DNA of 39,592 nucleotides from a virus, in the IMG/VR virus record IMGVR_UViG_3300046454_000439, positions 1 to 39,592 of that record; one strand, given 5' to 3'. The position numbers and the translations under genes are program-made. The notes beneath the pieces are model-generated. The model was not told the DNA's origin. It worked only from the letters and a program-made list of their open reading frames with translations, and searched no databases. Positions within the stretch are counted from its first letter, which is position 1, and each line of letters opens with the position of its first letter. Shown here one piece after another: positions 7,642 through 39,231 of this stretch.

Positions 7642-8511
7642 ATGGCGTTAGCGCAACAGGACATCGGCCGGCTTCGGGCCGCCACCGAGCAGGACATTTT
7701 CAGCCCGATCGACCCCTCTATATGGGCGGGCAAGCTGCCACCGCGGCGGGATTGGATGGTCGAGAGTTGTTTTATCCGCGGCTCTGTCGGCATGGTCAAC
7801 GGCGATGGGGGCGTCGGAAAGTCGCTCCTGATGCAGCAGCTTTTAACCTGTGCCGTCATGGGCCGTGGGTTTCTGGGCCTCTCCTGCCAGCCGGGGCGGG
7901 GCCTTTTTCTTTCTTGCGAAGACGACAGCGACGAGCTGTGGCGGCGGCAGCACGACATCAATCGCGCGATGGGTCTCGAGATGGAAGACACAGCCGAGTC
8001 GGGGCTGTGGATCGACCCCAGGGTGGGGCGTGACAACGTGCTCTCCCGGCTATGCCAGGACCGTAAAAGCCCGCACTACTGGACCATGCAGCCGACGCAC
8101 CTGTTCACCCGGCTGATAGAGTTCTGCATAACCCATGGCATCAGCTACGTCGTCGTAGACACAGCGACACAGACCTTTGCCGGCAACCAGAATGACGAGC
8201 AGCAGGTGGTTCAGTTCATCAACCAGCTGCGCCGGCTCGCGGTGGCGATCCAGGGGCTGGTGCTGATAACGAAGCATCCCAGCATGGCCGGGCGGGCGCT
8301 GGGGACCGGCGAATCGGGCAGCGTGTCGTGGAACAACAGCGTGCGCAGCCGCATCTACATGCACAAGGACAAGGCGCGCGGGCTGATGATCGAATCGAAG
8401 AAGTCGAATTACGGCCCGGCCGATTTACAGCTTCCGATACGGTGGGAGCGCGGCGCCTACATGCTCAACCAGCCCGAGGTCGCGCAGCCCCGAGGCTACC
8501 GAGACGATTGA
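7642..8511 (+). CDS. RepA-like RecA-fold ATPase (AAA_25 type)
   Basis: 289 residues. Walker A GDGGVGKS (54-61), CEDDSDELWRRQHDIN after the second strand, Walker B YVVVDTATQTF (D173), and LVLITKHPSMAGRA with the sensor region. This is the RepA/RadA-like family of phage and plasmid hexameric helicases and loaders. It is probably the phage's replication helicase, since no DnaB-type helicase or polymerase is visible. GGGGGAGG precedes ATG 7642. Its end overlaps the convergent gene at 8496 by 16 bp. Confidence 0.85.
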   Translation: MALAQQDIGRLRAATEQDIFSPIDPSIWAGKLPPRRDWMVESCFIRGSVGMVNGDGGVGKSLLMQQLLTCAVMGRGFLGLSCQPGRGLFLSCEDDSDELWRRQHDINRAMGLEMEDTAESGLWIDPRVGRDNVLSRLCQDRKSPHYWTMQPTHLFTRLIEFCITHGISYVVVDTATQTFAGNQNDEQQVVQFINQLRRLAVAIQGLVLITKHPSMAGRALGTGESGSVSWNNSVRSRIYMHKDKARGLMIESKKSNYGPADLQLPIRWERGAYMLNQPEVAQPRGYRDD

Positions 8512-8771
8512 TCCTCGTAGGCCGAGTTGAGGCGGATCGCCGTAGCTACCGCGGCAAATGCTGAGTGGGTGGGAAGCGGTATCTGTTGCCCGTCGCTGGC
8601 GACCAGCACGAAGGCCGGGATCGGCATGCCGTTGGGCTTCGTCGGGAAATCGACGCGATAGGGTCCGGGCGGCAGCGGCGCCAGGTCCAGCGCGGCCTCG
8701 ATCGTGCGCCGGTCAAGCCGTTGCGCGCGACGCACCGCCCGCCGCCGCCGCCACCATCGCGCGATGCTCAT
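8496..8771 (-). CDS. Duplicated hypothetical protein A, copy 1
   Basis: 91 residues. A basic N-terminus (M-S-I-A-R-W-W-R-R-R-R) leads into DRRTIEAALDLAPLPPGPYR and PTKPNGMPIPAFVLVASDGQ. The first 80 or so residues are nearly identical to the gene at 9813-10148; the C-termini differ. Last gene of the second leftward operon. ATG 8771 shares ATGA with the previous stop. Confidence 0.7.
   Translation of the reverse strand: MSIARWWRRRRAVRRAQRLDRRTIEAALDLAPLPPGPYRVDFPTKPNGMPIPAFVLVASDGQQIPLPTHSAFAAVATAIRLNSAYEDQSSR
8538..8771 (-). repeat. Tandem duplication, flank A copy 1 (partner 9915-10148)
   Basis: By eye about nine in ten bases match between 8538-8771 and 9915-10148. Identity is longest in the middle and ends abruptly on the 3' side of the genes. 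Confidence 0.9.
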
Positions 8772-9040
8772 CGTTCCGCCGCGAGCGCGGCCGCGAGCGA
8801 GGAGAATTTCTCGACGGCTTGCCTGCCAATGAGAACCAGCGCCGCAGCATTGCGGGGCAGTTTCGAGAGCTGTCCTGCAATACGATCGGAATGCCACTGC
8901 TTAACCTCAACGTATAGGTCCATCGCCGGCAGGTAAAAATCCAGATTCGTTGGGTCGGACTGGGTTTGCTCCGGGCGCGTATATTCTACCCCGGCGCCCT
9001 CCATCAGGATGATAAATTGCTTTTCAAGGGGGCACGTCAT
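8768..9040 (-). CDS. Small PD-(D/E)XK-type nuclease
   Basis: 90 residues. LEKQFIILMEGAGVEYTRPE, then NLDFYLPAMDLYVEVKQWHS, shows the D...ExK catalytic spacing of small restriction-like endonucleases such as Vsr-like and phage nucleases. GGAGG precedes ATG 9040. It is the variable cargo in position 2 of duplication copy 1; copy 2 has a different 57-residue gene there. Possible roles are host DNA breakdown or gene mobility. Confidence 0.65.
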   Translation of the reverse strand: MTCPLEKQFIILMEGAGVEYTRPEQTQSDPTNLDFYLPAMDLYVEVKQWHSDRIAGQLSKLPRNAAALVLIGRQAVEKFSSLAAALAAER

Positions 9041-9062: not shown

Positions 9063-9263
9063 TCAGGGCGGCCAGCGTCGCCACCCAGGCGGCACCCAGA
9101 GGCGGCCAGGTCGGCGCGGTCGGTGAGGGAGGGCCAGTATCCCAACAAGCAAGCCGCCCGCTATCGTGTGGAGGGCAGCCGCTGAGAGGCGGTCAGGCAC
9201 GGCGAGGGCGGCAATGCTGCCGCCCAACACCAGCGCCGCGAGAATGCCCTGCGCCTTGCTCAT
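9063..9263 (-). CDS. Membrane protein starting with the nuclease signal sequence; possible frameshift
   Basis: 66 residues as read. The first 23 residues are nearly the same as the signal sequence of the SNase at 10315-10800 (70-bp match, four differences), then the sequence diverges into a second hydrophobic helix (ALHTIAGGLLVGILAL) and an Arg/Pro-rich end. One other frame from about 9118 to 9037 would encode a third hydrophobic stretch (GAAWVATLAALTWVW) and stop exactly on the next gene's ATG (ATGA). A -1 shift would join them into a three-helix holin-like protein. Confidence 0.5.
   Translation of the reverse strand: MSKAQGILAALVLGGSIAALAVPDRLSAAALHTIAGGLLVGILALPHRPRRPGRLWVPPGWRRWPP
9194..9263 (-). 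repeat. 70-bp repeat of a signal-peptide coding start (partner 10731-10800)
   Basis: 66 of 70 bases match between the two copies. It covers the start codon and signal sequence of two otherwise different genes. Confidence 0.92.
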
Positions 9264-10148: not shown

Positions 10149-10318
10149 CCCCATATCCAGAGATTCCAGCCACCCGCGCTGTCGTGTGTTATCTCGACGT
10201 AGGGAGCGGCCAGCGCCGCGAGCTTTTCGATATCTGCCGCAAAGGCGTCGCCCTCGGCTTTGGTGCCGTAGTGGCCCTGAAGGTACGCCACGCGGGGGTC
10301 TGGGTCGTAGTCCATCAT
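10145..10318 (-). CDS. Small hypothetical protein
   Basis: 57 residues beginning M-M-D-Y-D-P-D-P-R-V-A-Y-L-Q-G-H-Y-G. The rest is a helix and a Trp-rich end (GGWNLWIWG). ATG 10318 shares ATGA with the SNase stop. Position 2 cargo of duplication copy 2. Confidence 0.6.
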   Translation of the reverse strand: MMDYDPDPRVAYLQGHYGTKAEGDAFAADIEKLAALAAPYVEITHDSAGGWNLWIWG

Positions 10319-10800
10319 CGGCGCGCCCTCCTCCAATCTGCCGGCATCGTGAAGCTGGTCGCCCACATGCCCAGGCGTTCCTGCTGCGCTGCGGCCTCCT
10401 CGTCGCGGTAGAAGCCGTGGCTGTAGTGGCGGTAGTCTACAGCCAGCCCCAGAGCCACCATGCGCCGGCCAAGATCGCCGTCCACAGTATGGCACAGAGC
10501 CACAATGCGGCCGTACCTATCGCGATCTCGCGGGTTGCAGGTAACAGCATCATGGGCCGTCATCCTTCGTATCGCGGCAGTCGCGGCCTCACCGCACGCG
10601 AAGCTGCCGCAGGTCTGGTCGTGCTCGGGGGCGTCCATGCCCCATAGCCTGATGCGGCGGCCGGCCAGCTCGAGAGTGTCGCCGTCGATGGTGCGGGCGT
10701 AGCCGGTCAGCTCGCCTGCCGACATGACCTCAGGCACGGCGAGGGCGGCAATGCTGCCGCCCAACACCAGCGCCGCGAGGAGGCCTTGCGCTTTGCTCAT
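10315..10800 (-). CDS. Secreted thermonuclease-like nuclease (SNase family)
   Basis: 161 residues. A signal sequence (residues 1-23, GLLAALVLGGSIAALAV) precedes an SNase domain: TIDGDTLEL (D39, D41), IRLWGMDAPE (R51, D56, E59) and DRYGRIVA (R98), matching the metal ligands and the two catalytic arginines and glutamate of staphylococcal nuclease. Four cysteines could pair in the periplasm. It likely degrades nucleic acid in the periplasm, perhaps incoming DNA from competing phages or host DNA after lysis (inference). ATGA overlap at both ends. Confidence 0.88.
   Translation of the reverse strand: MSKAQGLLAALVLGGSIAALAVPEVMSAGELTGYARTIDGDTLELAGRRIRLWGMDAPEHDQTCGSFACGEAATAAIRRMTAHDAVTCNPRDRDRYGRIVALCHTVDGDLGRRMVALGLAVDYRHYSHGFYRDEEAAAQQERLGMWATSFTMPADWRRARR
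10731..10800 (-). repeat. 70-bp repeat of a signal-peptide coding start (partner 9194-9263)
   Basis: Second copy of the 70-bp match; here it belongs to the intact SNase gene. Confidence 0.92.
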
Positions 10801-15350: not shown

Positions 15351-15459
15351 CGCCTTCAAGCCCCACGAGCTGGCGCTGAAGCCGGACCTGCGCCGGCTGC
15401 CGCCGCGGCCCGTGATGGACGGCTACCGCTCCTCGGCGCTGCTGGCGATGGAGCGGTGA
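15256..15459 (+). CDS. Small hypothetical protein with CxxC
   Basis: 67 residues from GTG 15256, directly after a very strong ribosome-binding site (GGGGGAGGCGAGG). It starts with S-D-A-Q-C-Q-E-C-D-R-R and continues KPHELALKPDLRRLPPRPVM. Its frame is the better coding one after about 15256. It overlaps the previous gene by 95 bp and the next by one base. Confidence 0.6.
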   Translation: MNRSDAQCQECDRREYWMVPWPRLSPIPLARDAFKPHELALKPDLRRLPPRPVMDGYRSSALLAMER

Positions 15460-16295
15460 TGCGCATCATTCGGGTATTCCCGCGCAAGACCAGAGCCACA
15501 CCCGATGACGCCCTTGTTTATTGCGGCCCGCCGGATTTGCTGGCCTACGCGGACGAGGTTCACGTCTCTGTTACGTTCACTTGGGACAAGCCGCGCGCCG
15601 AGCGACTTGCGGAGGAATGGCGATGGGTCGCGCCGGTCAAGATCGGCGGGGTTGCCTACGGCGATTCCAGTCTGGAGTTCATCCCCGGTCGTTACATCAA
15701 GCCGGGGTACACGATAACCTCGCGCGGCTGCCCCGAGCGGTGCTGGTTTTGCAGCGTTTGGAAGAAGTGGCCGACCGTCAATCTGCTGCCGATCCATGAT
15801 GGCTGGAACGTCCTCGACGACAACCTGCTGGCCTGTCCGCGCGAGCATGTCGAAGCTGTGTTCGAGATGCTGCGACGCCAAAAGAGACGATGCGAGTTCA
15901 GCGGGGGCATCCAGCCGGCAAGGCTGGAGGATTGGCATGTCGATCTGTTTGCCAGCCTAAAGCCGCGGCCGAATATTTTCTTCGCGTATGACGATCCGGG
16001 CGGGACGAACGATACCCTTGAAAGCCTGGAGAGCGCCGCCAGCCGGTTGATTGCCGCCGGTTTCACCGCCGCATCTCACCGGCTGCGGTCTTTCGTTCTG
16101 ATCGGGTTCCCGAAAGATACGCGGGAGGCTGCGGAGGAACGGTTGACCTCACTGGTCCGCGTCGGCATTACGCCGTTCGCGATGCGCTGGCGGCCGGAGA
16201 ATGCGGCCGGAGAGCGCCGGGCACCGGGGCCGGAGTGGCAAGCCTTTCAGCGCAGCTGGTCGAGGCCCGCAATGATCCACGCAAGGGCGGCGTAA
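15459..16295 (+). CDS. Radical-SAM family protein
   Basis: 278 residues from ATG 15459 (TGATG). ITSRGCPERCWFCSV (C91, C95, C98) is the CxxxCxxC iron-sulfur motif of radical SAM enzymes, preceded by the usual strand and S-R-G. Downstream parts (FSGGIQPARLEDW, FAYDDPGGTN, FVLIGFPKDTREAAEER) follow the alternating barrel pattern. These enzymes use S-adenosylmethionine to start radical chemistry; phage members act in nucleotide or DNA modification and in other pathways. Substrate unknown here. It stands between the lipoprotein and TerL, and so is expressed late. Confidence 0.85.
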   Translation: MRIIRVFPRKTRATPDDALVYCGPPDLLAYADEVHVSVTFTWDKPRAERLAEEWRWVAPVKIGGVAYGDSSLEFIPGRYIKPGYTITSRGCPERCWFCSVWKKWPTVNLLPIHDGWNVLDDNLLACPREHVEAVFEMLRRQKRRCEFSGGIQPARLEDWHVDLFASLKPRPNIFFAYDDPGGTNDTLESLESAASRLIAAGFTAASHRLRSFVLIGFPKDTREAAEERLTSLVRVGITPFAMRWRPENAAGERRAPGPEWQAFQRSWSRPAMIHARAA

Positions 16296-27272: not shown

Positions 27273-27890
27273 GTGCCTAGCAGTAAAGACCCCGAGGTAA
27301 ATCGTCGGAAAGCTAGAGAATGGCGGCTTGCCAACCCGGACAGGCACCGGGAAGCCAATCGCGAGTGGGAGACCATGAAGCGCGCCACCGACCCGGCATG
27401 GCGCGAAAAAAAGAAAAAGCAGACCCGGGCAAACGCAGCCAAACGAAGGGCGGCCAAACCGGAGTTGGTTGCTGGCTATCAAAAGGAATGGTTTGCCAAA
27501 CACCCGGACTACAATCGGGCCAAGTTGGCCGAATCTTACAAGAACAGGCCAGCGCTCCATATGCTTTGGCGGGCCAAAAGCCGGGCCGCCAAATTAGGCG
27601 TTCCTTTTTCCATCACGGCAGATGACGTTGTTATCCCGGAGCTATGCCCGGTGCTTGGCGTTCCTATGGAACTTGGGGGCAAAACTGTAAGGAAAACATC
27701 GCCCTCTCTTGACCGGGTAATTCCCTCTCTTGGCTACGTCCCCGGCAATGTTAAGGTGATATCAAATTACGCCAACATTATTAAGCAGGGCCACTCGCTA
27801 GAGGATTTGAGACAAAGAGCCCAAGCCCTTAGAGGGCAATTGGCTGGCGTCGAGGCAGTTATCGCCTATCTCGAACGCGAGACGGGCTGA
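27273..27890 (+). CDS. HNH homing endonuclease
   Basis: 205 residues from GTG 27273, seven bases after AGGAG. An ATG at 27267 is in frame but only one base from the site. A basic N-terminus with DNA-binding helices is followed by the HNH core: CPVLGVPMEL, then SLDRVIPSLGYVPGNVKVIS and NYANIIKQ. This is the common free-standing phage HNH type. Its GC is clearly lower than its neighbours', and it stands between two virion genes, so it is a recent mobile insertion. Confidence 0.88.
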   Translation: MPSSKDPEVNRRKAREWRLANPDRHREANREWETMKRATDPAWREKKKKQTRANAAKRRAAKPELVAGYQKEWFAKHPDYNRAKLAESYKNRPALHMLWRAKSRAAKLGVPFSITADDVVIPELCPVLGVPMELGGKTVRKTSPSLDRVIPSLGYVPGNVKVISNYANIIKQGHSLEDLRQRAQALRGQLAGVEAVIAYLERETG

Positions 27891-30520
27891 TGCCCAGCTC
27901 GCTGCGCAACCCGATACCGCTCACTTTCACAGCGAGAGGATTGAGCGACGCGACGGACGGATCGAATGTTCCGCGCGGCGCGATGCGGGTGCTGACCAAT
28001 CTGATCTCGAACCCGCGCAACACCGGGCAGATGATCTGCCGCCCCGCGGCGGTGCGCATCGAGGACTTGGCGACCTACTTCGACACGCCGACCCAGATCA
28101 CCGGCATGGAGGTCGTCGGCAACCTCGCCTACGGCATGGTCTCGACCGCGACCTACCCGGGCAAGGACGAGCCTTTCTGCTTCGATCTCGCGGCCAACGC
28201 CAACGTTGCGGTAACGGGCGTAACCGCCGCCTCGCTGCCAGCCTCGCCCGCGCTGACCGGGGAGTGGGAGCCGCCGATATTGCGGCACGTCGGTAGTCGG
28301 GTGGTCGTGACGCATCCCGGCTTTACCGACCCGGCCCGCAAATTCGGCTGGTTCGACATCTCCAGCTTCTCGACCACGATCACCGGGAACATGGACGAGC
28401 AGCGGGTCTTTGTCGGCGACACCGACAGCGCCCCTGCGATGGCCCCCTATATCGTCGGCCTGCCGCCCGGCACCTTGCCCGGCGCGGCCGATGTCGGCTT
28501 CACCGTGACGGGCGCCGGCGTCCAGGCCGGTAGCACGATCGAGGAAGTCACGCCGGTCTCGGTGGTGTTCGCAGGCGATATCACCGCCGCCTCGCCGAAC
28601 GTCGTCAACGTGGCGATCAACGGCACGCCGGACACGACCGGGATTTACGTCGGCCAGGCGGTGCAGGGGTCGGGGATCGCGGCCGGCACCCAGGTTGCCA
28701 CGATCAATCGTGCCGGGTTTGCGCTGACCTTGACGATCGACGCGACGGCCACGACCGCCGGGAACGCCATGTCGGCCTTGGGCAACCAGGTCAAGCTGTC
28801 GAAGGACACGACGGCGACGGCGGACGGCGTGACCTTCACGATGTTCAACCAGTACGCCGTCACCGGGAACCCGGATATCACCGGGTTGCAGCCAGGCATG
28901 CTCGTCACGGGTGGCGGCGCGCCCGCAAATACCAAGATCGTCTCGGTCGGCGCGACGCAGATCGTGACCAGCGGCACGACGGTCGTGGGCTCGAACGAAA
29001 TCGCCGTGCCGATCTACCCCAGCGGCATCTCCATCGGCATGACCGTGACCGGGGCCGGCATCCCGACAGGCTCGGTCGTGACCGGCACCACCGGCACGCT
29101 GACCACCAAGTTCATCATCATCTCCAACCCGGCGACCGCCTCCGGCACCACGGGCATCACTCTGACCGGCACGCAAATCCTGCTCGACCAGCCCGTGACG
29201 ACCCCCGCTCTTGGCGCGACCCTGACCGTCTCCGGCGGCACCAAGGCGGCGCCGCTATGGGGCTCAGGCGATACCGCGCCCATCAACCTGCCCTCGGCCC
29301 CGCTCGGTGTCGGCGCCTTCAACGGCCGGGCCTATTACGCGCTGGGCGAGGACGGCATCGGCTTCTCCGACGCGCTGCTGCCCTGCCAGATCACCAACGC
29401 GACGCAATTCCTGGTGCCGGACAACGGCCTCGCCGTGACGGCAATCGGGGAGTTGAAGGGCTATTCGACGACGCTTGGCTTTGTCGTGCGCGGCCTCGCG
29501 GCTTTCCAGTCCGATGTCGATATCCTCCAGATCACCGGCGACCCGACGACCGCCAACCTGACGCTAACCGATCTCTCCTGCGCCACCGGCACGCACGCGC
29601 CCTTGACGTTGGCCTCGACCACCAAGGGCCTCCTGTTCGTCTCGCCGCAAGGGCTGCGGCTGATGAGCCTGTCGGGCGAGATATCGGACCCTATCGGCCA
29701 GGATGGCAGCGGCATCGTCGGCCCGTTCCTCGACGTGACGAACCCGCCGCTTGCCGGCACCGCGCCGGCCTCGCGCATGGCCGCCGCCGCCAACGGCCGG
29801 ACCTATATCGTCGGCGTGCCGAAGACGGACGGGACCACCGCCTGCTACTGGTACGACATGATTCGCGGAGGGTGGACCGGGCCGCACAGCTGCGCTGTCA
29901 GCATGATCCGCACGTGGACGAGTTCGTTCGTCGCCATCCCGACCGCGACCGGGCAAACCACCACGCTGTTCCGTCTGGACGACACGCCGGTAGGTGATTC
30001 TACGTATGTCGAGTTCGGCGACCAGCTGACCTGGGAATGGGAGCCGTCGCTGATGCCCGACACCGGGCAGATGAGCGAGAACTGCATCATCGAAAGCTCG
30101 ATCATGGTGGCCTTGCCGCCGGGCGAGCAGGTGCAGATCGACTTCCTGAACGAGGTCGGCCAGAACCTGGACGGGGTGGCGGTCGCCGGCTATGTGATCC
30201 CGCAAGCCTATTGGGGCGACGGCACATGGGGCAACGATATCTGGGGCGGCACTTGGCTCGGCCCCGACCAGGGCACGATCCGGCAGCGGCAGATACCGTG
30301 GACGACGCCGCTGGTGTTCAAGCAGGGCACCGTCAATATCCGGGGCCTCTCGTCCTCCGGCATCGTTCTCGGCAACCTCTATCTGCGCTATCAGGTGCAG
30401 GGCTACTTGCTGGAGGTCCAGCAGTTCCCGGTGGCGCTGGGGGGTGGGGCCTTCCTGTTGGCGAATGACGGGATCACCATTCTGCGAAACAATACCGCCG
30501 TAAACCTGCGCCCGGATTGA
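27890..30520 (+). CDS. Tail hub / nozzle protein with inserted beta modules
   Basis: 876 residues; ATG 27890 overlaps the HNH stop. The ends look like a beta-propeller tail protein of the P22 gp10 / T7 gp12 sort: N-terminal TGSNVPRGAMRVLTNLISNP-like strand set, and FNGRAYYALGEDGIGFSDAL, GLLFVSPQGLRLMSLSGE, YWYDMIRGGWTGPHS later. Between about residues 195 and 450 are four copies of a short module: VGFTVTGAGVQAGSTIEEV, GIYVGQAVQGSGIAAGTQV, GLQPGMLVTGGGAPANTKIV, GISIGMTVTGAGIPTGSVV. The modules look like an insertion that could decorate the tail tip. Confidence 0.75.
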   Translation: MPSSLRNPIPLTFTARGLSDATDGSNVPRGAMRVLTNLISNPRNTGQMICRPAAVRIEDLATYFDTPTQITGMEVVGNLAYGMVSTATYPGKDEPFCFDLAANANVAVTGVTAASLPASPALTGEWEPPILRHVGSRVVVTHPGFTDPARKFGWFDISSFSTTITGNMDEQRVFVGDTDSAPAMAPYIVGLPPGTLPGAADVGFTVTGAGVQAGSTIEEVTPVSVVFAGDITAASPNVVNVAINGTPDTTGIYVGQAVQGSGIAAGTQVATINRAGFALTLTIDATATTAGNAMSALGNQVKLSKDTTATADGVTFTMFNQYAVTGNPDITGLQPGMLVTGGGAPANTKIVSVGATQIVTSGTTVVGSNEIAVPIYPSGISIGMTVTGAGIPTGSVVTGTTGTLTTKFIIISNPATASGTTGITLTGTQILLDQPVTTPALGATLTVSGGTKAAPLWGSGDTAPINLPSAPLGVGAFNGRAYYALGEDGIGFSDALLPCQITNATQFLVPDNGLAVTAIGELKGYSTTLGFVVRGLAAFQSDVDILQITGDPTTANLTLTDLSCATGTHAPLTLASTTKGLLFVSPQGLRLMSLSGEISDPIGQDGSGIVGPFLDVTNPPLAGTAPASRMAAAANGRTYIVGVPKTDGTTACYWYDMIRGGWTGPHSCAVSMIRTWTSSFVAIPTATGQTTTLFRLDDTPVGDSTYVEFGDQLTWEWEPSLMPDTGQMSENCIIESSIMVALPPGEQVQIDFLNEVGQNLDGVAVAGYVIPQAYWGDGTWGNDIWGGTWLGPDQGTIRQRQIPWTTPLVFKQGTVNIRGLSSSGIVLGNLYLRYQVQGYLLEVQQFPVALGGGAFLLANDGITILRNNTAVNLRPD

Positions 30521-31239: not shown

Positions 31240-33228
31240 ATGCGCCCGGCCCTTGCTGCGGCATGTTTCCTCGCACTTTTGACCCTCGCCGGGGCAGCGC
31301 ACGCTACCTGCCCGGTGATCCCGTTCGTCTTCCGCAACGGCACCCCGATGGACGCGGGCCAGGTCAACCAGAACTTCGCCTCGATCCGCGATTGCGCCAA
31401 CGCCAGCACCGGCGACGTGCTCGGGCCGGGTGCCAGCGCCATCGGCAACGTCGCCACCTTCAGCGACACCGCCGGCCACCGCATTGCCGACAGCGGCGCG
31501 CCGCCGACCCTGATCGTGCCGACCAACGCGGCCCTGAAGGCGAAGTCCACGGTCGGGATCAAGGCGCTCCTGCGCAACGGCTTCCTGGCGCAAGGCGACG
31601 TCGCGCCCCTGATGTACGTCGCATCGAGCAGCCCGTGCACCCTCAACGCCGGGGCGGGCGACGACGGTTCGCAGGTCAAGTCATCCGACAGCCGCTGCTG
31701 GATCGCGCAGTTTGCCAATGGCGTCATCGACCCTCGGCAATTCGGCTGCGTCGGCGACGGCGTGACGGACGACACGGTTTGCTTCCAGGCCGCCATCGAC
31801 GCCGCCGCCTACAAGACGGTGCAGCTGGTCTCGGGGCACTATTACTGCATCACGGCAGCGACGATCACTTCGGCCATGACGCTGGCCGGGGCGAACCTCG
31901 GCGTCGTTCCGCCGGTCGGCAGCGGCGGTATCATCGCCTGCGCCAAGAACGCCAACCTGATCTCGGTCAATGCGGGCGGGGTGATTATCCGGGGGGTGGT
32001 TCTGAACGGCACCGGCGGCAATACCGGCGGCTACGCCTTCGGCTTCAATGCCAACGATATCAGGCTCGAAAACAGCCTTATCAACGGCTTCTGCAACTAC
32101 ATCATCAACGGCGGGTCGCACAACGTCGTCAACGGCAACACCTTTACCGACAACGTGAACCCGACCGATTCGACGGGGTGCTACGTCATCACTGATGGCA
32201 CGGCCTCGGTCCAGGCCATCGGCTCGGTCTACACCAACAACCTGATGACGACATGGGGGCCGGCGGCAACCCAGACCTACACGGCGGGATTCCTGTTCCA
32301 GAACTCGGGCGGCCCCTACATCTCGAAGAACGATGTCCAGCGCACGAATTTCGGGACGATCATCAAGCCGATCGCCGGTAAGGCCGTGGCCTTTGCCTTT
32401 TTCGATCAGACCGTGCTCGGCGACACGACCAACAGCGACGGCCTCCTGATCGACACGAATGCCGGGAGCCTCGTGCAGATCATCAAGATCAACAACTCCT
32501 ACATCGCCCGCAACGGCGACTGGGCGGGAACCGCCGGCTGGGCCAATCAGGCGCGGAACGCGACGATCCAGAACACCGGCGGCGGCGGCTCCATCGTCTC
32601 CGGCGTCCACATCATCGGGCTGGCGGGCAACACGGCATCGGACCAGAACATCTTTGTCGGAGGCACCGGCACGAACGATGTCACGATCGACAGCTCGACC
32701 CTGTGCTACGCCGGCCAGCGGGTGGCCGCGGCGAATATCTACATCGACGAATCGACGGTTGCGGTGAGGAACAACACGCTGGCCGATGCCTGCGATGGGG
32801 TGGGCTTCGTCAGCGCCACCACCAGCAACGTCTATTTCGGCAATGTCGGGGTGAACAACGTCATCATCACCGGCAACCAGTTTTTCGGCTCCAGCGTGTC
32901 GCCGATCGGCGGGTTCCACCCGACCAACTCGAACGAGCTTCAGATAAGCAACAACTGGCCCCTGGATAGCGAGGCCCAGACCCTCGCCTCGGCTGCGGTC
33001 GTCGACTTCGGGTTCTATCCGCTGATCCGCATCACGGGCGCGGTCGCCGTGACCAATCTTGAGGCTCCATGGCAGGCGCGCGACGTGCGGATTTTCGTGG
33101 TGGACGGGCTGACGTTCACGGCCGGCGGCGGTGGCACCAACCCGGTCTGCGCCGACAAGGCCGTGGCGGCTCTGACTTTCGTGACCGCGACCTTCGTGCC
33201 GACCGACCTCTGCTGGGCGATCCACTAA
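31240..33228 (+). CDS. Exported beta-helix tail spike (pectate-lyase fold)
   Basis: 662 residues. A classic Sec signal, positive M-R, hydrophobic ALAAACFLALLTLAG and A-H-A cleavage before T-C-P, is unusual for a virion protein. The mature N-terminus VNQNFASIRDCANASTGDVL and VLGPGASAIGNVATFSDTAG is typical of tail-fibre attachment. DPRQFGCVGDGVTDDTVCFQ begins a right-handed beta-helix of about 400 residues with repeated Asn/Gly turns (IINGGSHNVVNGNTFTDN). The mature protein has 14 cysteines. A C-terminal cap ends in D-L-C-W-A-I-H. Likely receptor-binding or glycan-cleaving. No ribosome-binding site is close to this ATG. Confidence 0.8.
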   Translation: MRPALAAACFLALLTLAGAAHATCPVIPFVFRNGTPMDAGQVNQNFASIRDCANASTGDVLGPGASAIGNVATFSDTAGHRIADSGAPPTLIVPTNAALKAKSTVGIKALLRNGFLAQGDVAPLMYVASSSPCTLNAGAGDDGSQVKSSDSRCWIAQFANGVIDPRQFGCVGDGVTDDTVCFQAAIDAAAYKTVQLVSGHYYCITAATITSAMTLAGANLGVVPPVGSGGIIACAKNANLISVNAGGVIIRGVVLNGTGGNTGGYAFGFNANDIRLENSLINGFCNYIINGGSHNVVNGNTFTDNVNPTDSTGCYVITDGTASVQAIGSVYTNNLMTTWGPAATQTYTAGFLFQNSGGPYISKNDVQRTNFGTIIKPIAGKAVAFAFFDQTVLGDTTNSDGLLIDTNAGSLVQIIKINNSYIARNGDWAGTAGWANQARNATIQNTGGGGSIVSGVHIIGLAGNTASDQNIFVGGTGTNDVTIDSSTLCYAGQRVAAANIYIDESTVAVRNNTLADACDGVGFVSATTSNVYFGNVGVNNVIITGNQFFGSSVSPIGGFHPTNSNELQISNNWPLDSEAQTLASAAVVDFGFYPLIRITGAVAVTNLEAPWQARDVRIFVVDGLTFTAGGGGTNPVCADKAVAALTFVTATFVPTDLCWAIH

Positions 33229-33237
33229 AAGAAACGA

Positions 33238-33261
33238 CGGGCCGAAGCCCGCCGAGTTTTT
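33238..33261 (+). terminator. Terminator after the tail spike
   Basis: CGGGC-CGAA-GCCCG hairpin followed by TTTTT. The 143 bp to the next gene holds nothing else that I recognise beyond the ribosome-binding site. Confidence 0.5.
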
Positions 33262-33371
33262 GCCACCACACCTTGAGAGTCCTCGGTCCCCCGACCAAGA
33301 CCGTCACTATACCTAGCGTGGCGCAATTTCGCAAGCCGTGCTAATAGGGCTTGACAGTTTCGGAGGGGATC

Positions 33372-33710
33372 ATGCGCAAGACCATCGCCGCACTCGCCTG
33401 CGGCATCCTGCTCGGCACCGCCGCGATGCAAATCTCTGCCGCTATCCCAACGGGTGGCGGGTCGTCCGGCCCGGTCGAGCCGACCGCGCCCGGCATCCTT
33501 GGCCGGGTCAACGATTATCTCGGCAACCTCGTCTCGGCCTCGGCCAACACGGGCGAGTTGCAGTTCTTCGCGACACAGACATGGACGGCGAACTCGAACG
33601 TCGCCACCACGATGACCTCACTCGGGCCGCAGGGATCGCACACCACGATTCAGAAGTGGTTCGTGGTCGTCGATAACACCGGCGTCGTCCGGTATATCCC
33701 GGCTTACTAA
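33372..33710 (+). CDS. Small secreted protein
   Basis: 112 residues from ATG 33372, preceded by GGAGGGG. Signal (K-T-I-A-A-L-A-C-G-I-L-L-G-T-A-A) with cleavage after S-A-A. The mature part is Gly/Ser/Pro-rich, then ELQFFATQTWTANSNVATTM and WFVVVDNTGVVRYIPAY. No mature cysteines. The last 93 bp overlap the minus-strand glycan gene. Function unknown; probably associated with the spike or fibre. Confidence 0.65.
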   Translation: MRKTIAALACGILLGTAAMQISAAIPTGGGSSGPVEPTAPGILGRVNDYLGNLVSASANTGELQFFATQTWTANSNVATTMTSLGPQGSHTTIQKWFVVVDNTGVVRYIPAY

Positions 33711-34517
33711 GCCGGCCAGGACGGCGAACAGGACCGCCCACATGGGCCAGGACGCCGAGAGAAAGAGGCCGGCCACGACCCAGGCGGCGAGGATCGCCCT
33801 GTCGTCGCGGCCGGCTAGTCGCCATACGGTGACGGCGAGCCACATGCCCGCCGCGGCGCCGATGATGCCGGTGGCGATCAGCCAGTCAAGCGGGACGGAA
33901 TAGAAATGGTTGAGCGGCCAGACCTCGACCCCGCGAATCCCCCATCCCGTCAGCGGGTGCTGGGCGGCGATCTTGAGGCCAAGGGTCCAGATGCCGATCC
34001 GCGCCTCTGGCCGCCACAGCAGGATTGCGGCAGCTATTGCGGCGATGATCCCCACGCAGGCGGCGATACGGGAACGCTGCCACAGCCAGACCGCGCCGCC
34101 CGCGCCGACCGCCAGCAGCGCGCCGCGGCTCTGGGTTACGGCTACGGTGACGAGGTTGCCCACAGCCAGATAGCGATAGCCGAAGCGCAGGCAGACAAAG
34201 GCCATGACGGCGGCGAATGCGCCGAGGTAGTCGGGGCTGGCGAACGGCCCGGGTGGCCGAAATGGGTATTCGAGCCGGGGCAGCTGTACATAGGCGCAAA
34301 TGGCCGCCCCTACGGAAACCCATATGAAGCCGGTCCATACGCGGTCTATCTGGGGCCGGTCCAGGGCGGACAGCACGAGAAACCAGCAACCCAAGGCCAT
34401 CGCGGGCATGAAGGTGCCGGACCCTCCGGCGACGGGGATGGCGGCGGCGACAAGGCAGGCTAGGACCGCCCAGGTCAGGCGGTTGCTGCGGCTGGCGGCA
34501 AGGGTCGCGCTCGTCAT
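33618..34517 (-). CDS. O-antigen ligase/polymerase-like membrane protein (Wzy/WaaL type)
   Basis: 299 residues with about nine to ten hydrophobic segments. The family pattern is visible: AVTQSRGALLAVGAGGAVWL, then a periplasmic part HPLTGWGIRGVEVWPLNHFY and LDWLIATGIIGAAAGMWLAV, as in O-antigen polymerases and ligases. It acts, if so, at the periplasmic face to link or polymerise O-antigen units. It is the only minus-strand gene in the late region, with AAGGA before ATG 34517, and its 3' end is antisense to the previous gene for 93 bp. Phages such as Pseudomonas D3 carry related genes that change host O-antigen after lysogeny; that role here is inference. Confidence 0.7.
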   Translation of the reverse strand: MTSATLAASRSNRLTWAVLACLVAAAIPVAGGSGTFMPAMALGCWFLVLSALDRPQIDRVWTGFIWVSVGAAICAYVQLPRLEYPFRPPGPFASPDYLGAFAAVMAFVCLRFGYRYLAVGNLVTVAVTQSRGALLAVGAGGAVWLWQRSRIAACVGIIAAIAAAILLWRPEARIGIWTLGLKIAAQHPLTGWGIRGVEVWPLNHFYSVPLDWLIATGIIGAAAGMWLAVTVWRLAGRDDRAILAAWVVAGLFLSASWPMWAVLFAVLAGLVSRDIPDDAGVIDDHEPLLNRGVRSLRPE

Positions 34518-34595
34518 CGGGTTCCTTGGCTTTGTGGCATTCGGGTTGACATGAACACGTCGGGCAACTTCGCCGGCACCATCGGGAGAAAGCGT

Positions 34596-34769
34596 ATGCC
34601 AAAGCGCACGCCGGGCGGCAAGAAAACGGCGGTGGCCGATGTCGAGAGCAAGCTGAAGCGCGAGTACCCCGGCAACAAGTCGGCGGTGTACGGCACGCTC
34701 AACAAGATCGGCCTCATGCGCGGCAACAAGACCACCGCGAAGGGGCGCAAGGCCGCGAGGAAAAAGTGA
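34596..34769 (+). CDS. Small basic conserved phage protein
   Basis: 57 residues from ATG 34596, which follows GGGAG; an upstream ATG at 34551 lacks a site. ESKLKREYPGNKSAVYGTLN, then G-L-M-R-G-N-K-T-T, is a pattern seen in small phage proteins of unknown role. Very basic, with Lys/Arg-rich ends, so possibly nucleic-acid binding. It has no signal and differs from its neighbours. Confidence 0.7.
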   Translation: MPKRTPGGKKTAVADVESKLKREYPGNKSAVYGTLNKIGLMRGNKTTAKGRKAARKK

Positions 34770-35212
34770 TGTTCGACGGCGCGCAGGACGATTGGGTGAT
34801 GGGCGACCCGCTGGGCGGCAAGCTGATCGAGTGGCGGTGGACGCGGCCGCTCGTGCTCGCCGCGGCGGTTGCCGCGCTGTCGATCGCGCTGGCGACCTCG
34901 GCCTTCGCTCAGGCGAGCGCGGCGCTGTCGCGCTGCGACCAGACGGTTACGACCGGCTCGGCCCCCGTGGTCTTCCCGACCGCGACCACCACAGGCCCGT
35001 CTGCGCCGCAGAACTACTTCATGATCTGCAACGCGCACGCCTCGAACACGCTCGGGGTCAACCTGACCGGGGGAACCGCCGCCATCGGCTCGGCCGGCAC
35101 GCTGACCTTGCAACCCGGCGGCTGCCTGTGGCGTGACAAGTTCCCGATTCCGCCTGCGGTCACGATCATCGGCTCGGCCAGCGGCACCACCACGGCATGT
35201 TGGTACAAATGA
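34769..35212 (+). CDS. Secreted or membrane-anchored small virion-type protein
   Basis: 147 residues from ATG 34769 (TGATG). A 29-residue cytoplasmic leader precedes a signal (LVLAAAVAALSIALATSAFA) with possible cleavage before Q-A-S-A. The mature part of about 100 residues has four cysteines and Thr/Gly-rich strands (LTGGTAAIGSAGTLTLQPGG), ending T-A-C-W-Y-K. Function unknown; it is coupled by ATGA to the fibre gene. Confidence 0.65.
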   Translation: MFDGAQDDWVMGDPLGGKLIEWRWTRPLVLAAAVAALSIALATSAFAQASAALSRCDQTVTTGSAPVVFPTATTTGPSAPQNYFMICNAHASNTLGVNLTGGTAAIGSAGTLTLQPGGCLWRDKFPIPPAVTIIGSASGTTTACWYK

Positions 35213-36273
35213 AGCGCCACGCTCTCGGACTTCTCCTGGCGTTGCTGCCGGTGGCAGCGGCGGCGCAGGTCTACAACCCGCCCAACGCCCTCGTGCCGGG
35301 CGGCGCCCTTTTTACCCTCGGCTCGACCGCGATCACCTACGGCAGCACCGTCACGACGGTCGCCGGCCTAACCCTCTCGGGCGGCACGCTGTCTGGCACG
35401 ACGACACTCCCCGGATCGGGGCAGATAACATCTGGCGGGTTATTGGGATTGGGTGTTACGCCGACAACTATTATCCACTTATCGGCGGCGGCCCCGAGAA
35501 TTAGCCTCAGAGATACCGGGCTTTCAGAAAGAACTGTTTATGCTAGGGCAGATAACAATGGCACCACTAATTTCGTAGCACTCGGCGTAAGGACTGGCGG
35601 AGATACTGCAAATCAAGACATGGTGTTGGCTGATGTGAACGGGGTCAGCATAGCCGGACCAAACAAACCAATAGCGAAATTGAATATTGGGACCACCGCA
35701 GGCACGGCGCGCATCTACAACCTTTTCACCGATGCCTCAAACAGCGAGTGGGCGTATCTCGGGTCGTGGGCCGCCAACGTATCGACATTCGGCACTGCGC
35801 ATAACGGCAGCGGCGTCGCCCGCGACGTTAGCCTTGTCTATGACGGAACGGAACGCATCCGTCTCGTAACGGGAGGCATCAATCTGCCGTCACTCCCGAG
35901 TGACGCGACCCATACCGACAATACCGTTTGCGCCGATACCAGTACGGGACTGCTTTATAAAGGATCTGGCGCTGTCGGTATTTGCCTTGGGACATCGAGC
36001 GCTCGCTTCAAGCACGACATATCGCCGTTGCGGCCCGGGCTCGCACAAATCATGGCACTTCAACCCGTCTCGTATCGCTACAATAAGGGCTACGGCGATG
36101 ACGGCGCTCGCGAGTTGTATGGGTTTACTGCCGAACAAGTAGCCGATGTTCTGCCGGAACTGGTTGGACACGACGCCGAGGGGCGCCCGAACAGCGTTGA
36201 TTGGGCGGGTATTGTGCCGGTGTTGGTTAAGGCGATCCAAGAATTGAAGGAATCGGAGAAAGCCGCTAGATGA
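35209..36273 (+). CDS. Exported tail fibre with S74 self-cleaving chaperone
   Basis: 354 residues from ATG 35209. Signal GLLLALLPVAAAA with cleavage before Q-V-Y-N. Thr/Gly-rich repeats follow, then a C-terminal peptidase-S74 intramolecular chaperone: SSARFKHDISPLRPG with a Ser/Lys pair (S263, K268), QPVSYRYNKGYG and LYGFTAEQVADVLPELV, then a trimerising helix. S74 domains help trimeric fibres fold and then cut themselves off. Two mature cysteines. The middle (35430-35980) is AT-rich, suggesting recent exchange. Confidence 0.88.
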   Translation: MKRHALGLLLALLPVAAAAQVYNPPNALVPGGALFTLGSTAITYGSTVTTVAGLTLSGGTLSGTTTLPGSGQITSGGLLGLGVTPTTIIHLSAAAPRISLRDTGLSERTVYARADNNGTTNFVALGVRTGGDTANQDMVLADVNGVSIAGPNKPIAKLNIGTTAGTARIYNLFTDASNSEWAYLGSWAANVSTFGTAHNGSGVARDVSLVYDGTERIRLVTGGINLPSLPSDATHTDNTVCADTSTGLLYKGSGAVGICLGTSSARFKHDISPLRPGLAQIMALQPVSYRYNKGYGDDGARELYGFTAEQVADVLPELVGHDAEGRPNSVDWAGIVPVLVKAIQELKESEKAAR

Positions 36274-38291
36274 AGGCATTCCTGCTCACGGGCCTGCTGC
36301 TGGCCGCGGCCGCCCCCGCGTGGGCGCAGAGCCATAGCGGCGGTGGGATGAACCCGGCGGCCTCGAATGCGACGCTGCCGACCGCCCAGGTCAACATGGG
36401 GATGGGGGCAATAGCACTACGCAGCGAGGTAAGCGTCACAGCCCCGCCGCCGGAGCTCGCCGCCGCCGCATGTAACTGGAACGGCACGACCGGCGCCGAC
36501 GACACCGCGGCTATTCAGGCGCTGGCGACGGCGTATCCAACCGCCACACTCGTTTTCCCCACCGGGCATCCCTGCTATTCCGCAACGGGGCTGGTGTTCA
36601 CCACGCCTGTTTTCTTGCAGGGGAGCGGCTCTCTCACGCCGGGCATCTCCTCGACTTCCCAGGGCGCCTCGATAGTCTGCGCGCAGGCCGTCGTGACTTG
36701 CGTTAAATACACTCCTGTCCTGCAAGCGCCGCCTATTCGTGACCTCAACATTCTTGGCGCTAACACTTCGCCACTTTCCGGTTCGACGTGCCTTCGTATG
36801 GAGCTTTCTTATAACGTCGTTCTCGACCGTGTGCGCTGCTCGAATTTCGACAACGGATTTTACTTCTACTCAACCGCCAGCGCCGGGATTTCCGTCCACG
36901 CCTCGAAGCTGTTTACCTGCAACATCACGGGGAATTACCTCGTTTTTGATGGCTGGCCGGAAGCATATATCGACAACAGCCGTTTCGGTTGCAACAGTGG
37001 CCCCAACCCCACAGCAAACGCTTACGTCAAAATTACGGGCGGCAACGCGACGAATGCTGCTGGCGGTCCCAACACCCTACATTTTAACAACAATCATTTC
37101 AATGGAGCGGCTAATTATTGGCTCTCGTTTGAGAGTCAGCTGCCGGCGTCGATAGCCGACATTGTCGAGTATAATTTCTATAATAATCATGTGGAAGGGG
37201 TTCATACCGCCTATATACACTCAGACTCGACGTGGCCGGTGGTTCAGCGTGTGCAACTTTCAGCAAACACACTGAATAGCGCGCAGCCACTTTTTTCCCT
37301 GGACGCCACTACGGCCCTCAAGCAATGGACGATCACGGGGAATATAATAGCGTGTACCAACATCACTGTGGCGCCGCCGCAAATTCGCCGGTTTGATTTT
37401 GTCGGCAATGAAGTGGGTTGCGGCGGGACTATCACGGGTCCGGGCGCAAGCACCATCGCCGCCGCGTCATTCTCTGGCAATACATTCTCTGGGAACGTGA
37501 CGCTGGATGGTGCATGGGGAAGTTTGTATTGGGCAAATTCGTTCGCCGAGGGCGGGACTCTCACCGATAGCGCGACCGGGACCAAGGCTGTGCTGCGAAC
37601 GAATGGCCCCTCTACGCTCACAGCGCCCTATAGTGGGGGGCAGCTTGTCCTCGGGTCTTCGGGACAATCCGGCTTAATTCAATTTGCGCGTGGCGCGGAC
37701 GGGCTAGTGAGGGGTTCTGTTGGATGGGCCGGGGCCAGCGAGGCTAATAGGTTTTTCACGACGGTAATCGGGGGCAGCAGCGTTGCCGGCCTGAATGCTG
37801 CCGATCCAACGGGGACTTCTCAGATCCAAGCCAATAGCGTCACCGGGCTGACGGTCGGCGTCGGCTACGGCAATCAAGCCGTAATCGGCACCACGGGGGT
37901 GGCCGGAAGGTTGGACCTGGCGCGGACAGGCGACGGTACTTGGGGCAGGCAATGGTTCGGGTACTGCGACCCGTCCGGCGCGACCGATGGCGCACTATGC
38001 GTCAACTCCAATGGCGGGTCGGCTGAGGTCCGTATCCAGGCGCAGAACACCGGCGGCCTCGTCAAGATACAGGTCGGCACGACCCCGACAACGATTGGCA
38101 TTTGGTCCGATCTTGGTCTCAATATCGTGCCTGTGGCTGTGGCGTCATTGGGCACTTGCAATGCCGGCGCAGAAGGAACATTCCGCCCCGTCAATAACAA
38201 CAACGGCGCGGTCTTTAACGCTGCCGTTGTGGCCGGAGGGACAGACCATATCGTTGCGTACTGCAACGGTACGGGGTGGGTGGTTCACTAG
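36270..38291 (+). CDS. Exported beta-helix tail spike, second copy
   Basis: 673 residues, ATGA with the fibre gene. Signal FLLTGLLLAAAAPAWA before Q-S-H. Near residue 70, AAACNWNGTTGADDTAAIQ begins a pectate-lyase-like beta-helix with N-x-F-x-G turns (HFNNNHFNGAANYWLSFES). C-terminal repeats and a cap (GTCNAGAEGTFRPVNNNNGA, ending A-Y-C-N-G-T-G-W-V-V-H) follow. The mature protein has 14 cysteines, as in the spike at 31240. AT-rich stretches in the middle again suggest exchange. Likely receptor recognition. Confidence 0.78.
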   Translation: MKAFLLTGLLLAAAAPAWAQSHSGGGMNPAASNATLPTAQVNMGMGAIALRSEVSVTAPPPELAAAACNWNGTTGADDTAAIQALATAYPTATLVFPTGHPCYSATGLVFTTPVFLQGSGSLTPGISSTSQGASIVCAQAVVTCVKYTPVLQAPPIRDLNILGANTSPLSGSTCLRMELSYNVVLDRVRCSNFDNGFYFYSTASAGISVHASKLFTCNITGNYLVFDGWPEAYIDNSRFGCNSGPNPTANAYVKITGGNATNAAGGPNTLHFNNNHFNGAANYWLSFESQLPASIADIVEYNFYNNHVEGVHTAYIHSDSTWPVVQRVQLSANTLNSAQPLFSLDATTALKQWTITGNIIACTNITVAPPQIRRFDFVGNEVGCGGTITGPGASTIAAASFSGNTFSGNVTLDGAWGSLYWANSFAEGGTLTDSATGTKAVLRTNGPSTLTAPYSGGQLVLGSSGQSGLIQFARGADGLVRGSVGWAGASEANRFFTTVIGGSSVAGLNAADPTGTSQIQANSVTGLTVGVGYGNQAVIGTTGVAGRLDLARTGDGTWGRQWFGYCDPSGATDGALCVNSNGGSAEVRIQAQNTGGLVKIQVGTTPTTIGIWSDLGLNIVPVAVASLGTCNAGAEGTFRPVNNNNGAVFNAAVVAGGTDHIVAYCNGTGWVVH

Positions 38292-38296
38292 GGCTG

Positions 38297-38695
38297 ATGC
38301 CGAACAGCGTCCTAGACCCCCTTTCGCAGCTGATCGGCGGCCTGTCGGCGCAGGTCCAGGGTCTCGCGTCGCAGATCACCGACTTGCGCGCCGAGGTCGT
38401 CACCAACCGCTCCAGTAATCAAATAAGGTGGGACGACCTAACCAAACAGATGGATTTGGTTCAGGCGGAATACCGTAATGTCAAGCACATGGAGCGCGGA
38501 CTTGAACAAGAGAAGTTGCTGATCGCCCAGCGGTTGCAGGGCATGGACAGCCGCCTTGACGCTATCGAGCGAATGATCCTGATCTGGCGCACCCGGTATT
38601 CGATGCTGCTGGCCGGCGGCGTGGCCTTGGGCACCTTCCTGGGCGGCATATTGCACGCTATCTTCGGCGTCTGGCTGGGAGCGGTATGGCACTGA
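38297..38695 (+). CDS. Coiled-coil membrane protein (holin candidate)
   Basis: 132 residues from ATG 38297 with AGGG before it. A long coiled coil (GGLSAQVQGLASQITDLRAE, LEQEKLLIAQRLQGMDSRLD) then membrane helix YSMLLAGGVALGTFLGGI and I-F-G-V-W-L-G. An adjacent downstream endolysin fits a holin or lysis regulator. Confidence 0.65.
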   Translation: MPNSVLDPLSQLIGGLSAQVQGLASQITDLRAEVVTNRSSNQIRWDDLTKQMDLVQAEYRNVKHMERGLEQEKLLIAQRLQGMDSRLDAIERMILIWRTRYSMLLAGGVALGTFLGGILHAIFGVWLGAVWH

Positions 38696-39231
38696 TGAAC
38701 ACATTCCAGATGGACCCGTGCACCGACATCATCCTGCACTTTATCCGGGGCGGGGTGCCGGACAACCCGATCGGCGAGGCGCGCAACAATTACAACGCCT
38801 ATTTCGGGCACCCGACATCGACGATCGCGCTCACCGAGATGAGCATGGGGCAAATCTACTCGTTCCAGTCATCCATGCTGATGCGCGATACCCGGTCGTC
38901 GGCGGTGGGTGCCTACCAGTTCCTGCGCGGCACGCTGCGACGGCTGGCGCAGCAGGCCAACCTGTCGCCCGGCATGCTGTTCACGCCCACCTTGCAGGAC
39001 ATGCTGGGGTGGGAATTGCTGGTCGGGCGCGGCTACAAGCTCTGGTGGAAGGGCGACATGGACGACGAGGGCTTCGCGCATCTCCTGTCCTGCGAGTGGG
39101 CCTCGCTGCCGGACCCGGAGAACGGCGGCAAGTCGCACTACGACGGCGACAGTGTAGGCAACCACGCCTCGACGACGTTGCGCGCGGTGTACGCGATGCT
39201 GGCCGAGGCTCGTGCCGCGAAGCCGAAGTGA
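38686..39231 (+). CDS. Endolysin (GH104/lambda-R-like glycosidase)
   Basis: 181 residues from ATG 38686 after GGGAG; ATG 38695 (TGATG) is an alternative. RNNYNAYFGHPTSTIALTEM, then SSAVGAYQFLRGTLRRLAQ, LFTPTLQDMLGWELLVGRG and EWASLPDPENGGKSHYDGD, the pattern of phage muramidases and transglycosylases related to lambda R. It has no signal peptide, so it depends on a holin to reach the cell wall. Confidence 0.82.
   Translation: MALMNTFQMDPCTDIILHFIRGGVPDNPIGEARNNYNAYFGHPTSTIALTEMSMGQIYSFQSSMLMRDTRSSAVGAYQFLRGTLRRLAQQANLSPGMLFTPTLQDMLGWELLVGRGYKLWWKGDMDDEGFAHLLSCEWASLPDPENGGKSHYDGDSVGNHASTTLRAVYAMLAEARAAKPK

Follow-up and report, generated by a model that had tools for sequence, protein, structure and literature searches.

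The tail-fibre module

The window, a linear IMG/VR virus record taken over its full length of 39,592 bases, codes for a terminase, a head-tail adaptor-like portal, a capsid protein and tail genes. One of the latter (27890..30520, +) lies upstream of a tail-fibre module, and its homologues in relatives precede a spike that is either signal-bearing or signal-less. The module begins with spike 1 (31240..33228, +; 662 aa, 14 mature Cys), residues 54-660 of which were matched to the tail fibre family phrog_33320 with an E value of 9e-42, the body being homologous to the tail fibre of Bcep43 and Bcep781. A predicted signal peptide of 22 aa ending AHA/TC (31240..31305, +; the slash marks cleavage) is followed by an N-terminal attachment domain, TCPVIPFVFRNGTPMDAGQVNQNFASIRDCANAS (31306..31407, +), with Cys24 and Cys52, and by a second conserved domain, CTLNAGAGDDGSQVKSSDSRCW (31576..31797, +), with the pair Cys133/Cys153. 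Next come a 112-aa protein with a hydrophobic N-terminus and no mature Cys (33372..33710, +) and, antiparallel within the module, a membrane protein weakly like O-antigen ligase/polymerase (33618..34517, -; Wzy_C E 0.0054, below the family cutoff). They are followed by a 147-aa protein with four mature Cys (34769..35212, +; signal 34769-34909) and a fibre with the pair Cys241/Cys259 (35209..36273, +; signal 35209-35265) and a C-terminal Peptidase_S74 domain (PF13884; 35995..36165, +; 49.7 bits against a curated cutoff of 22). Spike 2 (36270..38291, +; signal 36270-36326; 673 aa, 14 mature Cys) has no family match, and only near-identical contigs were matched when phage records and viral contigs were searched for its relatives. 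An endolysin-like gene (38686..39231, +) lies directly 3' of the module. Single-sequence AlphaFold models of the two spikes had pLDDT values of 33 and 42, too poor for use of the fold, and a PDB fold search with these models gave no matches.

Contig L003 is near-identical to the window and has ~7 kb extra, lying between the window's last base (39592) and its first, which codes for three Cys-free proteins of ejection type (503, 389 and 1231 aa). There was no further spike in this extra stretch, and the rest of the phage genome held neither a signal-less spike nor any spike outside the module; this leaves the module's spikes and fibre as the only receptor-binding candidates.

Signal peptides and cysteine counts

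An earlier note on this DNA had claimed signal peptides for five products of the module. Inspection of open reading frames and starts found the five genes, their starts and their lengths as described, and the mature Cys counts given (14 and 14 in the spikes, 4 and 2 in the 34769 product and the S74 fibre, 1 in the capsid protein, 4 in the portal) were all exact. The signals were clear, of the Sec/signal peptidase I type, in the products of 31240, 34769, 35209 and 36270, whereas that of 33372 was only weak. Scoring was done with a home-made predictor, not SignalP, in which a signal peptidase I matrix drawn from 43 E. coli signals is combined with charge and hydrophobicity rules for the n-, h- and c-regions. 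The predicted signals were MRPALAAACFLALLTLAGAAHA/TC for spike 1 (matrix score 9.8), MKRHALGLLLALLPVAAAA/QV for the S74 fibre (8.6) and MKAFLLTGLLLAAAAPAWA/QS for spike 2 (17.1), and the 34769 product has a long n-region followed by ...LSIALATSAFA/QA, which reached 17.1 when scored from an internal start. All four have a basic n-region, a hydrophobic h-region and an A-x-A-like site. The 33372 product scored 2.55; among its homologues that of L109 has a good signal, that of L091 a hydrophobic N-terminus with no clear cleavage site and that of L148 no signal. Five other structural products (27890, 30525, 30978, 38276 and 38686) all scored negative. As controls, homologues of the tail gene and of the capsid gene were scored, and 3/152 and 1/99 of them were flagged, against a background of 205/3353 other ORFs of at least 150 aa.

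Stop-start overlaps with the preceding gene (TGATG at 34769, ATGA at 35209 and 36270) fix the signal-containing starts and thus place the signal within the translated frame. An ATGA overlap between signal start and upstream stop was likewise found at 48/96 signal starts of relatives.

Even Cys counts in five proteins are by themselves weak evidence, and the weight rests on comparative counts. Mature Cys number 14 both in spike 1 and in the Bcep43 fibre. Eight can be aligned between the two and form four pairs of neighbours (133/153, 285/314, 489/518 and 637/658), and those not common to the two lie mostly in twos as well. Cys density was dropped as a discriminator, being 1.09 per 100 aa in signal-bearing spikes and 0.94 in the tail gene.

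The attachment domain in relatives

After the predicted cleavage spike 1 would begin with TCPVIPFVFRNGTPMDAGQVNQNF. Distant relatives of the phage were located through homologues of the 27890 tail gene at 30-40% identity; a scan of 385 genomes of one class for such homologues gave one marginal match. In L010, L013, L015, L016 and L017 the protein behind the tail gene opens with the attachment motif and has no signal, whereas in L012 the motif is preceded by one. Profile scans over viral contigs and bacterial genomes yielded 158 distinct proteins with the domain: 118 signal-bearing, 38 with the Met start at the domain and two not classifiable. The classes were assigned by the predictor, with a hydrophobicity rule added for about 22 proteins that it missed. 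In the 118 the signal ends where the attachment domain starts. Where a tail gene was detectable the spike lay within 1.5 kb behind it in 99/110 cases, 70 of them signal-bearing and 29 Met-start. The domain is conserved at the N-terminus of proteins whose C-terminal part is variable, in the tail module before the lysis genes. No match was found in 50,697 cultured phage records with a short query of low sensitivity. Kuravirus SU10 (7z47) and gp47 (8vbx) were rejected as structural relatives of the domain, the matches being to a mid-fibre SGANSDITSL segment.

On the supported branches of the tail-gene tree there were at least 10 changes of the signal label. Because the tree tracks the phage backbone, and whole spikes may pass from one phage to another, the changes show that spikes were exchanged repeatedly at the locus, not that the signal was invented repeatedly. 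In genomes of rhizobia and Reyranella some signal-bearing attachment-domain proteins have large RHS/YD-like genes as neighbours, and no obvious phage genes adjoined them in the four loci inspected; the exported domain thus has a use in bacteria as well, outside virions.

The gene order of L091 indicates that export is a trait of the module as a whole rather than of a single gene. Its first spike is signal-less and is followed, in the order of the window, by homologues of 33372, of the antiparallel Wzy_C-like gene and of the 34769 product, and then by two more genes with signal-like starts. The 34769 product has four Cys and its L091 homologue two, the first and last being kept.

Coupling of cysteine pairs and signals

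One Cys of the attachment domain lies near the mature N-terminus and the other ~28 residues on, where it ends a predicted helix. Conserved signals and Cys had been proposed as the thing to look for in relatives, and both recur widely: 118/156 classified proteins have the signal and 82/118 of these the Cys pair, a share inflated by the use of signal- and Cys-bearing queries in scans for both domains. The other 36 signal-bearing proteins have neither Cys and none has a single one, while among the 38 Met-start proteins none has both and seven have one. The association of pair with signal is strong (Fisher 6e-16, or 7e-9 following 70% dereplication, with two cases reassigned after sequence inspection), and the query bias does not account for the absence of single Cys alongside a signal or of pairs in Met-start proteins. 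The 36 proteins with a signal and no pair imply that disulfides are not the sole reason for export.

With the attachment pair set aside, the remaining Cys (in proteins having any) were even in number in 66/80 signal-bearing against 9/23 Met-start proteins, and in 23/27 against 4/11 after clustering at 35% identity. In the tail gene, taken as a cytoplasmic control, parity was evenly divided (53 even, 49 odd). Among 10 independent pairs on the tail-gene tree the Cys pair follows the signal in 7-8 and the opposite was found in none (median p 0.0078).

An independent test came from the second domain of spike 1 (GDxGSQVKSxDxxCW), which is unrelated to the attachment domain and common to the Bcep43/Bcep781 tail fibre and Shewanella phage QDWS. 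It was scanned for in Cys-bearing and Cys-free forms, giving 58 scorable proteins. Automated scoring found signal and pair in 31, pair without signal in four, signal without pair in two and neither in 21. On inspection the four exceptions (Bcep43 past its A9 run, L215, L277 and L279) had signal-like starts, as did the Cys-free L254, so that the counts became 35, 0, 3 and 20 (Fisher 1e-12), the signals of L215, L279 and L254 being assigned by eye at low matrix scores. Cultured phages with neither signal nor pair in this domain were VSW-3, pphageT12, RHph_X2_24 and Entb_48. In both domains, then, Cys were gained or lost as pairs and solely alongside the signal.

Probable export and virion membership, and proposed docking

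Four points are supported by comparison of the sequences: signals are predicted, cleavage would fall at the attachment domain, Cys pairs go with the signal, and signal-bearing spikes interchange with signal-less ones at one locus. Export, disulfide formation and cleavage by signal peptidase I where the domain begins are accordingly to be read as predictions, but highly probable ones. It is also likely, with somewhat less assurance, that the proteins with export signals are the spikes of the virion, given the common slot, the common attachment domain and the lack of any other spike. The earlier note had supposed that receptor-binding proteins fold outside the cytoplasm and either become part of virions at lysis or work on host surface glycan before it. 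Its export and oxidative folding are strongly supported by the signal/Cys coupling in the two unrelated domains and by the parity controls; virion membership is supported indirectly.

The scheme proposed is as follows. The spikes and the S74 fibre would be the receptor-binding proteins of the phage, each made with a cleavable Sec signal peptide and exported to the periplasm. Signal peptidase I would trim them there, leaving the virion-attachment domain as the new N-terminus, and the spikes would be oxidised to a disulfide-bonded form, presumably by DsbA, and may assemble as trimers in the periplasm. They would then wait until the envelope is broken by holin, endolysin and spanin, and bind to tails that are already complete. 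That they join the virion at lysis or later is the most plausible reading, though an unproven one, because the phage has no signal-less spike and both forms interchange at one locus. Tailed phages assemble in the cytoplasm, and docking at lysis is thus an extra assumption. P22 tailspikes attach in vitro to particles that are otherwise complete, and late docking is therefore physically reasonable. For the full reading, that of exported, disulfide-bonded receptor-binding proteins which dock at lysis, we put the probability at roughly 0.6.

The proteins might instead be exported and disulfide-bonded but free and no part of the virion, acting as enzymes on surface glycan or blocking receptors after release ahead of lysis or in lysogeny. 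This would suit the Wzy_C-like gene within the module, in the window and at the same position in L091, the O-acyltransferase gene that adjoins the QDWS spike and the attachment-domain proteins beside RHS/YD-like genes in bacteria. It would, however, leave the phage without a receptor-binding protein, and an attachment domain identical in kind to that of signal-less spikes in the same slot is hard to explain without virion binding; we regard it as unlikely. A dual use, in which an internal start or slippage yields an exported and a cytoplasmic form from one gene and the cytoplasmic form alone enters virions, draws on the Bcep43 fibre gene, where ATG plus nine A precede a signal in another frame, the record joining two pieces, so that the signal-bearing product may be only part of the output. 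Between the signal and the domain of spike 1 no internal start is conserved, and the sole GTG there, at codon 26, lacks a ribosome site and would lose Cys24, which makes such a use improbable here. About equally doubtful is a hydrophobic N-terminus that serves not as a Sec signal but as a buried virion anchor or chaperone tag, with disulfides forming after release. The disulfide networks described for virions of Agrobacterium phages Milano and 7-7-1 lend it some colour, but the Ala-x-Ala sites that end at the domain start would go unexplained, and so would Cys pairs and even counts seen only alongside the signal. Chance or an annotation artefact (wrong starts, or a relic) could be argued from the weak 33372 signal and the long in-frame upstream extensions of 34769, but is very improbable with stop-start overlaps at the signal Met, more than 100 proteins whose diverged signals keep the n/h/c form, low control rates and comparative data that contradict it.

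Returning to exported spikes that dock at lysis, the odds lean slightly towards a widespread class of tailed phages with Sec-exported, disulfide-bonded periplasmic receptor-binding proteins, whose virions are completed when cytoplasm and periplasm mix at lysis. Phage assembly would then be split over two compartments and the particle finished outside the cytoplasm, and the rule of all-cytoplasmic assembly for tailed phages would fail in a large environmental group. Such phages would gain periplasmic disulfide chemistry, with spike folding dependent on Sec and Dsb, and the interval between rupture of the inner and outer membranes would acquire a use. Recombinant spikes of this type would be likely to go wrong, as would pipelines that read a signal peptide as marking a protein outside the virion. 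The signal and the two domain motifs provide a simple sequence marker, and since cultured Bcep781, Bcep43 and QDWS carry such spikes the reading is directly testable.

Comparison with known systems

In the open-licence papers searched, exported tail spikes were nowhere reported as a class, the sole precedent found being a 'possible signal peptide domain' note in the GenBank records of Bcep43 and Bcep781. The portions available of sources on gp38, Hankyphage, Circe, 7-7-1, Atu_ph07, Loki, rumen and B124-14 phages contained no statement on signal-bearing fibres. Structural proteins of the Milano and 7-7-1 virions are disulfide-cross-linked (PMC10811340; PMC12796354), and Cys alone are therefore insufficient as evidence; in the parts of these papers available the cross-linked proteins are those of capsid, sheath and neck, unlike the spikes and fibre here, and signal peptides or the periplasm have no mention.

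The 35209 fibre shares a C-terminal S74 domain, the endosialidase-type intramolecular chaperone, with other Peptidase_S74 fibres and differs in having a Sec signal and a Cys pair ahead of it. The signal-less spikes of L091 and of the five contigs L010, L013, L015, L016 and L017 have the N-terminal motif of spike 1 and its slot behind the tail gene, but their start codon is at the domain and they never have both Cys. The spike of Shewanella phage vB_Sb_QDWS (UEP18758.1) resembles spike 1 in its second domain, including the Cys pair there, in having eight Cys as four local pairs and in a predicted signal, MIKKILLTALLVPAMALA/QT, at an N-terminus missed in the record, where the annotated start is internal; its attachment domain is another one and its tail is of the baseplate type. 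The tail fibre of Bcep781 (gp49) and Bcep43 (gp48) has a homologous body (28.6% over 83% of spike 1), a signal peptide, 14 mature Cys and the four common Cys pairs. These two phages differ from the present one in a baseplate-type tail, with a baseplate wedge subunit in the record, and in another N-terminal domain; at the signal there is an A9 run, and the reading frame is a joined one.

Genes and genome form

The N-terminus of the second spike (window 36270-36400), NPAASNATLPTAQVNMGMG, is similar to the signal-bearing YPDASNAKLPDARVNIGAA of other phages (L221 and L228) and, judged from this likeness, is probably another type of attachment domain. Third-position GC is 0.64-0.67 in the genes for the S74 fibre and for spike 2 (window 35209-38291) against 0.8-0.9 in most of their neighbours, which suggests that the two genes were acquired recently. 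Also within the spike module, and antiparallel to it, is a gene on the minus strand (window 33618-34517) for a membrane protein weakly like O-antigen ligases/polymerases. Its position is conserved in the distant phage contig L091, where the counterpart (7753-8811) is again on the minus strand, and it is possibly a surface-modifying gene adjoining the receptor-binding proteins.

Elsewhere in the window a GARS_C (PurD C-terminal) domain (150-935) and a radical SAM protein (15456-16292) are encoded, possibly for nucleotide or DNA modification. An SNase-type nuclease with a predicted signal for export (10318-10800, minus strand) has a partial duplicate on the same strand (9063-9263) with a nearly identical signal peptide. 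A stretch of ~7 kb in the near-identical contig L003 (13324-20355 of L003), absent from the window, joins the window's two ends. The phage thus probably has a genome of ~46.6 kb that is either circular or circularly permuted.

Related proteins in bacteria and other phages

Proteins of ~300 aa with the attachment domain and a signal were found in rhizobial and Reyranella genomes (loci L180, L182, L187 and L190), with up to four in tandem, and neighbouring genes encode exported proteins of 1500-2000 aa and short YD-repeat-like proteins.

Among phages, the annotation of the related spike of Shewanella phage QDWS (OK094664; L203 4300-6641) omits the N-terminal third, including the signal; the annotated CDS begins at an internal Met and an ORF on the opposite strand has been called over the omitted part. 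An O-acyltransferase gene adjoins this spike. The record OP650936 (Hujiaoplasma phage zrk29-1) is equal in length to that of QDWS (47,902) and gave the same match in the search as QDWS did, so the two may be one phage under two host names.

The related spike genes of Burkholderia phages Bcep43 (gp48, L202 4631-4660) and Bcep781 (gp49, L204) have nine A directly after the start ATG, the signal peptide lies in a different frame from that ATG and two pieces are joined in the record, all of which suggests slippage. Such slippage could set the amount of spike that is given a signal.
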